NCBI GenBank assembly: GCA_021837305.1 | Contig: JAKBGV010000003.1 | Span: 1-64,000, forward strand | Length of the DNA: 64,000 nt | Source of the DNA: Actinomycetes bacterium | GTDB lineage: Bacteria > Actinomycetota > Acidimicrobiia > Acidimicrobiales > RAAP-2 | Direction: 5' to 3' | In this document: positions 21,233 through 55,166 of the stretch, one piece after another | How the letters are laid out: each line of letters starts with the position of its first letter | Position numbering within the stretch: the stretch's first letter is position 1 | The notes under the pieces: generated by a model | The model's database searches: none | Seen by the model: only the letters and a program-made list of their open reading frames with translations | Told to the model about the DNA's origin: nothing | Program-made: the position numbers and the translations under genes

Positions 21233-22654
21233 ATGAGTCGAGACACGGGGGTGCACATGACGCGTGAACTGTTCCAGGAGTCGGCGAGTTCGCTGGCACG
21301 AATGATCCGAAGTGGCGAGACGACCGCCCGTGCGGTCGCCGAGGCCCACCTCGCGCGCATCGAGGCCGTGAACGATTCGGTCAACGCCGTCGTCGAGGTT
21401 CGCCCGAACGAGGTCCTGGCCGCCGCGGACGCCGCCGACGAGCAGCTCGCCGCCGGGCGTCCACTCGGACCCCTGCACGGCGTACCGTTCACCGTCAAGA
21501 CCAACATCGACGTGACGGGCTACGCCACCACCGAGGGGACCGCGGCGCTCGCCGACCGCGTGGCGCCGAGCGACTCGCCCACCGTTGAGCGCATGCGCGC
21601 GGCGGGAGGGGTGATGCTCGCGCGCACGAACATGCCCGACCTCGGGCTTCGTATCAACACCGAATCGTCGCTCTACGGGGCCGCGCACAACCCGTGGCGC
21701 CACGGCCACACGACAGGCGGCTCCTCGGGCGGGGAGGCCGCGTCGATCGCGGCGGGGATGAGCCCGATTGGACTCGGCAACGACATCGGTGGTTCGCTGC
21801 GCAATCCGGCCTACGCCTGCGGCATCGCGTCGATCAAGCCGTCTCGCGGGCGCGTGCCGATGGCTAACGTCACCGACCCCATCGAACGTCCCATCAACGC
21901 CCAACTCATGCTCGCCGAGGGTGTGCTCGCACGACACGTCGCTGACGTGCGACTCGGCTTGTCGGTCGTGATGGGTTCGCACCCGCGGGACCCCCAGTCG
22001 GTCGACGTGCCCCTCGGCGGTCGCCCAGTAGCACGCCGGGTCGCCCTCGTGCCCGAGCCGAGTGGGGGAGCGACGCACCCTGACGTGGCCGAGGGGGTTC
22101 GAGTCGCCGGACGCGCCCTCGAGGAGGCGGGCTACGAGGTTGACGAGGTCGAGCCACCGAAGCTCTTCGAGGCGTACCTGGCCTGGACCGAGCTCATGAT
22201 GACGAGTCTGAAGGTCGCCGCACCCCTCTTTGTGCCGCTCCTCGGCGATGACGGTCGGCGTTTCCTCGAGCTCACGACGGTGGAGTTCCCGGCGACCGAC
22301 GAGGCGCTCTACGCGATGCACCAGTCCCGATTCGCGGTCGAACGGGCCTGGCGCGAATTCATGGAGTCCTACCCCCTGATCGTCGGGCCGACCTGGACCC
22401 AGCCACCCTTCGAGCACGGTTTTGACATCATCGACCAGGAGTCGGCGATGGCCGTCTCGGAACTGTTCCGCTTCGTGCTGCCAGCGAACCTGATGGGCCT
22501 GCCGGCCGCGTGCGTGCCGACTGGCGTCGCCGGCGGGTTGCCGACGGGCGCGCAGATCATCGGCACCATGTTCCGTGACGACCTCTGCCTGGACGCCGCG
22601 GAGGCGGTGGAACGTGCGGTCGGTGTCCTGACCCCGATCGATCCGCGTCCGTGA
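21233..22654 (+). CDS. Amidase (amidase-signature family)
   Basis: GVPFTVKTNIDV, HTTGGSSGGEAASIAAGMSPIGLGNDIGGSLRNPA. Confidence 0.93.
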   Translation: MSRDTGVHMTRELFQESASSLARMIRSGETTARAVAEAHLARIEAVNDSVNAVVEVRPNEVLAAADAADEQLAAGRPLGPLHGVPFTVKTNIDVTGYATTEGTAALADRVAPSDSPTVERMRAAGGVMLARTNMPDLGLRINTESSLYGAAHNPWRHGHTTGGSSGGEAASIAAGMSPIGLGNDIGGSLRNPAYACGIASIKPSRGRVPMANVTDPIERPINAQLMLAEGVLARHVADVRLGLSVVMGSHPRDPQSVDVPLGGRPVARRVALVPEPSGGATHPDVAEGVRVAGRALEEAGYEVDEVEPPKLFEAYLAWTELMMTSLKVAAPLFVPLLGDDGRRFLELTTVEFPATDEALYAMHQSRFAVERAWREFMESYPLIVGPTWTQPPFEHGFDIIDQESAMAVSELFRFVLPANLMGLPAACVPTGVAGGLPTGAQIIGTMFRDDLCLDAAEAVERAVGVLTPIDPRP

Positions 22655-23100
22655 GCGTTGTCGTACGGGCGATCACGCGCGCCGAGGTCCCCGACGCGGT
22701 GGCGCTCATCGTCGAGGGGACGTTGGCCCCGGGTAGCGAACGGCCCGACGAGGTGGACGAGTACTGGCGCGCGGCGCTCGCGACGCGCGATCGCGGCGGC
22801 GAGGTCCTCGTCGCCGTCGACGGCGACGACGTGGTCGGGGTCTGTCAGGTTCTCATCTTTCCCCACTTCCAACACACCGGCGGCTGGTGTTGTGAGCTCG
22901 AGAGTGTCTACGTGCGCGGCGATCGACGGGGCGGGGGAATCGGTTCGGCGATGCTGGGCGCCGCGGAGTCGCTCGCGCGCGACGCCGGTTGCTACCGCAT
23001 ACAACTCACCAGTCGCAATCCTCGCCTCGCCGCCCACCGGTTCTACCGGGCGCTCGGCTACGAACAGATGAGCCAGGGCTTCAAGAAGACGCTGGGGTGA
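22651..23100 (+). CDS. GNAT-family N-acetyltransferase
   Basis: LESVYVRGDRRGGGIGSAMLGAAESLARDAGCYRIQLTS...AHRFYRALGYE. Confidence 0.88.
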   Translation: MSVVVRAITRAEVPDAVALIVEGTLAPGSERPDEVDEYWRAALATRDRGGEVLVAVDGDDVVGVCQVLIFPHFQHTGGWCCELESVYVRGDRRGGGIGSAMLGAAESLARDAGCYRIQLTSRNPRLAAHRFYRALGYEQMSQGFKKTLG

Positions 23101-51532: not shown

Positions 51533-51608
51533 TGGCGGGTAGTTCAATCGGCAGAACAGCGGACTTTGGATCCGAAGGTTGGAGGTTCGAGCCCTCCCCC
51601 GCCAGCCA
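51533..51608 (+). tRNA. tRNA-Gln (anticodon TTG), CCA encoded
   Basis: TGGCGGG acceptor / CCCGCCA, D-stem GTTC/GAAC, anticodon loop CTTTGGA, T-arm GGAGG-TTCGAGC-CCTCC, G discriminator then CCA. Confidence 0.95.
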
Positions 51609-53071: not shown

Positions 53072-54160
53072 GTGGATCGACCTACCTGCGTCGTGGTGCT
53101 CGCGGCGGGCGAGGGGTCGCGGATGCGATCGGATCGACCCAAGCCGCTGCACGTGCTCAGTGGCCGTCCGCTCGCGTACTTCGTCATGGACGCCACCGAG
53201 TTGGACGGCGTTCGCGCGACGGTCGTCGTCGTCGGTCATCAGGCTCGCTGGGTGGAGAAGGTGCTCGGCGAGCGGCGAAGCGGGATACCGGTTCGCTTCG
53301 TGGAGCAGTTCGAGCAACTGGGCACCGGCCACGCGGTGTCCGTGGCAATGCCCACCGTCAGCGAGGTCGCCGGTGAGGACGACCTCGACGTCGTGATCGT
53401 GCCCAGTGACACGCCGCTACTTCGTCGCGAGACGATGGCCGACCTGGTCGAACGTCACCGCGAAAGCGGCGCCGCGATCACGGTGCTTTGCGCCAATCTG
53501 GTCGATCCCGCGGGCTACGGGCGCATCGTGCGAGCCCGCGACGGCTCCATCGAGCGCATCGTGGAGGAGCGTGACGCCTCGAGCGACGAACGCAGTCTCA
53601 CCGAGGTCAATACCGCGATCATGGTCGTTCGCGCGAGCCTGCTGGGCCCGGCACTCCGGCGGGTGGACCGTCGCAACGCCCAGCGCGAGTACTACCTGAC
53701 CGACGTGGTGTCGGTGCTGCACGACGCGGGGCACCTCACCAGTGCCGTCGTGCTCGAGGACCCCCTCGAGGCCTCGGGGGTGAACGACCGTGAACAGCTC
53801 GCGGCGGCCGAGTCGGTGATGCGCGAACGGATCAATCGACGTTGGCTGCGCAACGGCGTGACCATCTGGGACCCCGCGACGACCTACATCGACGCCGACG
53901 TCGAACTGGCGGCCGGTGTGTCACTCCTACCCGGCACGGTGCTGCGGGGGCGTACCGTTGTGGGCGCCGGCTCGTCGATCGGTCCCAACGCCCACGTGTC
54001 CGACGCGGTCATTGGCCGAGACGTGCGGCTGGGCACCGTGGACGTCGATCGGGCGGTCATCGGCGACTCGGCGACTGTGGGGCCCTTCAGCGCGCTCGGA
54101 CCGGGCAGCGAGGTCGCCGTCGGGGAGGTTGTCGCCGCGGGGACTCACCGGCCTTTCTGA
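53072..54160 (+). CDS. glmU: GlmU-like UDP-GlcNAc pyrophosphorylase with shortened C-terminal left-handed beta-helix
   Basis: VVLAAGEGSRMRSDRPKPLHVLSGRPLAYFV, EQLGTGHAV, VPSDTPLLR, NAQREYYLTDVV; only 362 aa, ends soon after VGPFSALGPGSEV. Confidence 0.88.
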   Translation: MDRPTCVVVLAAGEGSRMRSDRPKPLHVLSGRPLAYFVMDATELDGVRATVVVVGHQARWVEKVLGERRSGIPVRFVEQFEQLGTGHAVSVAMPTVSEVAGEDDLDVVIVPSDTPLLRRETMADLVERHRESGAAITVLCANLVDPAGYGRIVRARDGSIERIVEERDASSDERSLTEVNTAIMVVRASLLGPALRRVDRRNAQREYYLTDVVSVLHDAGHLTSAVVLEDPLEASGVNDREQLAAAESVMRERINRRWLRNGVTIWDPATTYIDADVELAAGVSLLPGTVLRGRTVVGAGSSIGPNAHVSDAVIGRDVRLGTVDVDRAVIGDSATVGPFSALGPGSEVAVGEVVAAGTHRPF

Positions 54161-54191: not shown

Positions 54192-55166
54192 GTGGAGTCG
54201 CTCGCGAAACGCCGCCTGGTAATCGTGACGGGACGCTGCCACCCCGCCCTCGCCAAGGACATCGCCGACCGATTGGGTGTGGAGCTGACCGAGGCCAACG
54301 TGCGCGAGTTCGCCAACGGCGAGATCCACTGCCGGTTCGACGAGTCAATTCGCGGCGCCCATGTCTTCATCGTCCAGACGCACTCCTCCCCGGTCAATGA
54401 CGCGGTGATGGAGCAACTCATCATGATCGACGCCGCCAAGCGGGCTTCGGCCAAGAGCATCACCGCCGTCATCCCGAACTACGGCTACGCCCGTCAGGAC
54501 CGCAAATCGGCCGGCCGAGAGCCGATCACGGCCAAACTGATCGCCGACATGCTCCAAACCGCGGGTGCCAATCGCGTGCTGTCCGTTGACTTCCACTCGG
54601 GCCAGATTCAGGGTTTCTTCGACATCCCGGTTGACCACCTGGTTGCGGCACCGGTACTCGAGGCCTACCTCAACGCGAACGCCGACCCCCACGACATGGT
54701 CGTGGTCGCACCCGACGCCGGACGAGTGAAGGTCGCCGAGCGCTACGCCCAGCACCTGGGCTGCGACCTCGCGCTGGTGCACAAGACGAGGCCCCGTGGA
54801 CTGGTCAACGTGGCCGAGGCTCGTCACATCGTCGGCGACGTGCGGGGCCGACACTGCGTCTTGATCGACGACATGATCGACACTGCGGGCACGATCGTCG
54901 CGGCCTGTGATCTACTGAAGACCCACGGGGCCGACGAGATCTGGGTGATGGCGACCCACGCCGTCTTCTCGCCGCCCGCTGTCGAGCGGCTGTTCAACGC
55001 CCCCGTGAGCCGCGTCATCGTCACTGACACCTTGCCGCTCGGCCCCGAACGCCGCTTTGAGAAGTTGGAGATCCTGTCGGTGGCGACGATCGTCGCCAAC
55101 GCGATCTCGGCCATCTTCGAGGATTCCTCGGTTTCGGACATCTTCGGCGGCGAGAACCTGCTCTGA
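54192..55166 (+). CDS. prs: Ribose-phosphate pyrophosphokinase
   Basis: FANGEIHCRFDESIRGAHVFIVQTHSSPVNDAVMEQLIMIDA, PNYGYARQDRK, CVLIDDMIDTAGTIVAA. Confidence 0.96.
   Translation: MESLAKRRLVIVTGRCHPALAKDIADRLGVELTEANVREFANGEIHCRFDESIRGAHVFIVQTHSSPVNDAVMEQLIMIDAAKRASAKSITAVIPNYGYARQDRKSAGREPITAKLIADMLQTAGANRVLSVDFHSGQIQGFFDIPVDHLVAAPVLEAYLNANADPHDMVVVAPDAGRVKVAERYAQHLGCDLALVHKTRPRGLVNVAEARHIVGDVRGRHCVLIDDMIDTAGTIVAACDLLKTHGADEIWVMATHAVFSPPAVERLFNAPVSRVIVTDTLPLGPERRFEKLEILSVATIVANAISAIFEDSSVSDIFGGENLL

Follow-up and report, generated by a model that had tools for sequence, protein, structure and literature searches.

The acetyltransferase half of GlmU has been lost in the Acidimicrobiales, and this state is fixed across the order. 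The window analyzed here, a stretch of 64,000 nucleotides from one member of the order (assembly GCA_021837305.1, contig JAKBGV010000003.1), carries one of the truncated glmU genes (Table 1). Taken as a whole, the best explanation, which we consider probable, is that GlmU works as a monofunctional pyrophosphorylase in these bacteria and that acetylation occurs in trans. According to this explanation, an ancestor of the Acidimicrobiales would have lost the acetyltransferase half, the remaining protein would convert GlcNAc-1-P and UTP into UDP-GlcNAc, and a separate, non-homologous enzyme would acetylate GlcN-6-P or GlcN-1-P, with an order-wide GNAT of ~145 aa, termed D in the following, as the best candidate.

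The identity of the window protein as a GlmU ortholog is established by its position in the GlmU tree and by the glmU-prs gene order, which is kept in most relatives, with full-length and truncated genes alike. In alignments with solved GlmU chains, the first ~350 residues pair with approximately the first 340 residues of proteins of 450-500 aa, while the family profile TIGR01173 is covered from position 3 to 336 of 452 with a score of 321.8 bits, i.e., below the family cut-off of 366.85. The C-terminal sequence reads ...VGPFSALGPGSEVAVGEVVAAGTHRPF and is followed by the stop codon. The protein stops before the acetyltransferase catalytic region, as the original prediction had it, and prs begins at exactly the distance that had been given. 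E. coli GlmU (456 aa) shares with the window protein the uridyltransferase domain and the first coils of the beta-helix but has in addition an acetyltransferase half with R333, K351, H363, Y366, N377, N386 and K392. A truncated E. coli chain of 331 aa (PDB 1FWY/1FXJ) aligns with window residues 5-340; as opposed to this chain, the truncation in the window is natural and order-wide. The sole tRNA gene found in the window by ARAGORN, tRNA-Gln (ttg), is located at 51533-51608 on the forward strand.

Table 1. Position of the truncated glmU gene, its parts and the downstream gene in the window.
Feature	Position	Strand	Remarks
glmU, truncated; predicted monofunctional GlcNAc-1-P uridyltransferase (UDP-GlcNAc pyrophosphorylase)	53072..54160	+	362 aa, GTG start
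N-terminal nucleotidyltransferase domain, aa 1-255	53072..53836	+	11/11 checked uridyltransferase residues present; border approximate, by homology
Left-handed beta-helix stub left over, aa 256-351	53837..54124	+	Hexapep match 295-321
Site equivalent to E. coli R333 (G343, 54098-54100) and new C-terminus	54098..54160	+	Full-length GlmU continues here into the acetyltransferase active site
prs, ribose-phosphate diphosphokinase	54192..55166	+	Start 31 nt past the glmU stop

Active-site residues were compared between 46 GlmU proteins from the order and ten from sister orders using the numbering of the E. coli enzyme, for which the roles of these residues are established. The uridyltransferase residues G14, R18, K25, Q76, G81, T82, D105, G140, E154, N169 and N227 are invariant in 46/46 order proteins, and all of them are present in the window protein, the N-terminal half of which had rightly been described as intact. 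On the other hand, position 333 is never Arg and position 351 never Lys in the order (46/46 lost), the region H363-S405 (H363, Y366, N377, N386, K392, S405) is essentially deleted, with stray aligned residues at 386-392 in one of the 46 proteins, and the NYDG motif, originally noted as missing from the window protein, occurs in none of them. All ten sister-order proteins retain R333, K351, H363, Y366, N377, N386 and K392 as well as NYDG or NFDG, one of them having F for Y387. The earlier statement that two Arg residues are replaced in the window protein is correct insofar as A341 and G343 are the counterparts of E. coli R331 and R333; however, R331 varies (S, H, Y, N) even among full-length sister-order relatives while R333 is invariant there (10/10), so that only the second Arg is informative. 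In GlmU from Staphylococcus aureus, E348 and H362 have been named as catalytic, and all three subunits of the trimer contribute to the acetyltransferase site of GlmU (PMC11947611). Since the uridyltransferase residues are all kept whereas those of the acetyltransferase are replaced or deleted, only pyrophosphorylase activity is predicted to remain, as had been proposed, and the pattern of residues argues strongly that no more than this half of the truncated protein can be active. That it does have pyrophosphorylase activity we infer from the same residues.

The truncation is common to all 46 order homologues and clearly exceeds what chance would produce: their length is 354-375 aa, whereas 19 full-length relatives belonging to other orders of the class have 456-505 aa. 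In 13 order genomes measured with their gene context, GlmU has 359-369 aa, and in nearly all of these and of the 19 full-length relatives prs is the next gene. A search of 60 relatives covered 25 families of the order, and a truncated GlmU or a fragment of one was recovered from 24 of them. In a sample of 148 genomes of the class, GlmU proteins above the TIGR01173 cut-off were present in 0/37 order genomes vs. 101/111 others. In the GlmU tree, the order forms one clade beside full-length lineages, and its members have a common short new C-terminus, often ...TG(P/A)FYT in families other than that of the window. We therefore have high confidence in a natural, order-wide monofunctional GlmU.

An assembly error, a frameshift or a pseudogene, in which case a C-terminal half would exist but be missing from the sequence, might be suspected because the source genome of the window is distributed over 105 contigs and 72.7% complete. 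This reading has a practically negligible probability, as an identical end point occurs in dozens of independent genomes, closed ones included, prs follows glmU directly, and dN/dS of glmU, in a comparison of the window species with its closest relative (88% identical), amounts to 0.138 for the whole gene and to 0.231 for the last 33 codons. The overall value shows that the truncated gene is under purifying selection. A second, full-length GlmU, which would have overturned the original prediction, was found neither in the assembly of the source genome nor in the 37 order genomes; a second match in the source genome (C28:69409-70392, 28% identity) is a distant nucleotidyltransferase. In a different, single-contig genome, G042, the GlmU profile match (C1:1283677-1284786, L043) crosses one TAG and reaches profile position 362, and the stretch past this stop may be a relic of the half that was lost.

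With regard to the remaining steps of the pathway, GlmM was found in 20/20 genomes checked, and inspection of the sequence showed that in the source genome and in genome G073 it is immediately followed by a GlmS N-terminus (MCGIIGVVG...). When the C-terminal half of E. coli GlmU was used as a query, counterparts were recovered from sister orders at E-values of 1e-37 to 1e-40, while 26 order genomes yielded no separate GlmU-type acetyltransferase domain but only generic hexapeptide matches (best 1e-9), and one of them, genome G130, no match at E<=10. A split-off or relocated C-terminal domain was thus not found in the genomes searched, and the separate hexapeptide-repeat acetyltransferase for which a search had been suggested did not materialize; the best candidate is a GNAT. 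As GlmS and GlmM are present and a GlmU-C domain was not found, the gap is confined to the acetylation step, for which a different enzyme or route must be responsible, in line with what had been proposed for the window.

Uptake of a ready-made product would be one such route. In Rickettsia, GlmU has likewise kept its uridyltransferase half and lacks the whole acetyltransferase domain, and import of GlcNAc-1-P from the host has been put forward as the explanation (PMC5615194). A comparable import or salvage of GlcNAc or GlcNAc-1-P, rendering the acetyltransferase dispensable, is very unlikely in the Acidimicrobiales: Rickettsia is obligately intracellular while the Acidimicrobiales include free-living autotrophs. 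The single-contig genome G073, taken as that of Acidimicrobium ferrooxidans ICP-T, carries a truncated GlmU, and this free-living strain is an autotroph that uses ferrous iron and CO2 for growth and possesses a meso-DAP murein (PMC3035218). An autotrophic, murein-making organism must produce UDP-GlcNAc de novo, so that salvage cannot explain the loss; the retention of GlmS and GlmM also speaks against it. N-Acetylation in trans by another enzyme hence is the reading that we regard as very probable.

GNAT proteins from six order and two sister-order genomes were inventoried with one Pfam model (PF00583) and clustered on the basis of reciprocal best hits. By this measure, two families (C and D) occurred in 6/6 order and 0/2 sister genomes, and D is the only family of the inventory that occurs in all six order genomes and is nearly absent from sister orders. 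Family C, resembling ArsN1/phosphinothricin acetyltransferase, is order-wide, yet it was recovered from 28 sister genomes at E<1e-60, some of them with full-length GlmU, and was rejected. Also rejected were the RimJ-like cluster E, present in 5/6 order genomes and not found in A. ferrooxidans, and a GNAT encoded in the window (22651-23100, forward strand) that has no order-wide orthologs in the inventory and reaches only 46 bits with the D profile. The latter protein has 149 aa, its gene overlaps the end of an amidase-like ORF, and in several genomes of the same family its spacing to glmU is comparable. A eukaryotic-type GNA1 was also discarded, as a yeast query, an approximate sequence, gave only weak GNAT matches and none in the well-assembled genomes G073 and G130.

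At E<1e-48, D was detected in 34/37 order genomes vs. 3/111 other genomes of the class, where four further, weaker matches (1e-18 to 1e-23) occur, and at E<=1e-30 in 26/27 order genomes vs. 6/271 others in a sample of the phylum; as the order is one clade, these counts lack phylogenetic independence. Among named GTDB contigs carrying D, most of those that give a group are labelled Acidimicrobiia, Acidimicrobiales, Acidimicrobiaceae, Ilumatobacteraceae or Microthrix, and a few have other labels. D was not found in the assemblies of the source genome of the window (72.7% complete) or of G177 and G199, both 96-99% complete. Its gene neighbors, judged by eye from sequence, are NUDIX-, GlnD- and HemQ-like, and no glm or murein genes adjoin it.

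The AlphaFold2 model of D (pLDDT 96) was compared with the PDB, and among several hundred GNATs the aminoglycoside 3-N-acetyltransferase AAC(3)-Ia was the best match (20% identity), followed by GNA1 from Trypanosoma brucei (3FB3, 27% identity). AAC(3)-Ia acetylates an amino group of an amino sugar and, unlike the order-wide D, is a resistance enzyme. Profile searches with D also reach other GNA1s. In GNA1, a Glu-Asp pair binds the 3-OH and 4-OH of the sugar, a Tyr stabilizes the thiolate and Lys136 binds the 6-phosphate. D, 27-30% identical to GNA1 from T. brucei (3FB3 and 3I3G, the latter named TbGNA1; PMC3413214) and Caenorhabditis elegans (4AG7), has the GNAT fold, the Glu-Asp pair and the Tyr in common with them: Glu78-Asp79, invariant in 12 and in 32 sequences, is the counterpart of Glu104-Asp105 of the C. 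elegans enzyme, and Tyr126, likewise invariant and aligned to the FYEKLGF stretch of the T. brucei enzyme, that of Tyr149. The phosphate-binding Lys136 and the active-site Cys141 of GNA1, however, are not matched, the corresponding residues in D being T110 and S115. R140, invariant in the order set, is found near the strand of the phosphate-binding Arg164 of GNA1, in a region where the alignment is uncertain. The predicted reaction of D is acetyl transfer from acetyl-CoA to an amino sugar, but D should not be called GNA1 and may work either like GNA1 or on GlcN-1-P. Since it is devoid of the phosphate-binding Lys, the role of D is put forward here as a hypothesis.

A sub-version of our explanation fixes the substrate. 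In analogy to eukaryotes, a GNAT would acetylate GlcN-6-P, GlmM or a related mutase would convert GlcNAc-6-P into GlcNAc-1-P, and the truncated GlmU would serve as UAP. The matches of D to GNA1 in profile and fold and the shared Glu-Asp pair and Tyr are in favor of this eukaryote-like sequence of reactions, while the lack of an equivalent of Lys136 for the 6-phosphate and the poor outcome with the yeast query in order genomes are not, and we lean slightly against it.

It is about equally balanced whether another enzyme, i.e., a GNAT common to sister orders or an acetyltransferase outside the GNAT superfamily, is responsible for acetylation, D then being merely an order-specific gene. The inventory was narrow, comprising PF00583 and six order genomes, so that it may have failed to capture another enzyme; D and the glm genes are not linked, and several genomes outside the order combine it with full-length GlmU. 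In genome G423, which also contains D, GlmU is present in two adjacent pieces (C21:872727-874036, L285 and L291; profile positions 11-285 and 288-450) with the appearance of a frameshift. In addition, the acetyltransferase region is truncated or internally deleted in GlmU proteins from two further families of the Actinomycetota, f59 (L268-L273, L277) and f80 (L274, L276, L286), in which no D homologue was found at E<=1e-30. Against such another enzyme stand the restriction of D within the inventory, the distribution of the order-wide family C, which sister genomes with full-length GlmU commonly possess, and genome G176, which unites D with an independent truncation.

G176 belongs to family f35 outside the order and is one of the three non-order genomes of the class with D. 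Its GlmU (C19:41594-42382, L261) consists of the nucleotidyltransferase domain only (248 aa), with prs 108 nt downstream. Five other members of f35 checked have full-length GlmU, and the G176 protein groups with them in the tree, which points to a separate loss. D from G176 groups with D proteins from f46 inside the diversity of the order, many forks being weak, and GlmU from f46 is full-length. On the basis of this tree, D was probably acquired by transfer, and the data are consistent with a transfer before the loss in GlmU. G176 is the best independent support for D and a single case; apart from this genome, it is mainly one clade that links D with truncation. We therefore propose D only tentatively as the acetylating enzyme. 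With the same reserve, we suggest a previously undescribed bacterial route to UDP-GlcNAc, in which D, a GNAT non-homologous to the beta-helix domain of GlmU, would catalyze acetylation and would have allowed two losses, one in the order and the other in G176 following transfer of D.

Truncated GlmU is already known from Rickettsia and from Chlorobaculum limnaeum, a free-living bacterium in which the C-terminus is absent as well (PMC7725333). This case differs from the order in having been reported for one species of another phylum, and the passage on it names no candidate enzyme. Together with f59 and f80, C. limnaeum indicates that loss of the acetyltransferase half is recurrent and that D is not a universal replacement. 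A literature search retrieved no paper on GlmU in Acidimicrobiia. What is new is the fixation across a free-living order, the recurrent loss elsewhere in the Actinomycetota and a candidate replacement. Murein cannot be made without UDP-GlcNAc synthesis, and the acetyltransferase site of GlmU is under study as a target for antibacterials, the premise being that bacteria depend on it. The existence of a free-living order and of several other actinobacterial lineages without this half of the protein implies a replacement in bacteria, and with a concrete candidate gene, D, and a natural experiment, G176, the open gap in the pathway becomes directly testable.
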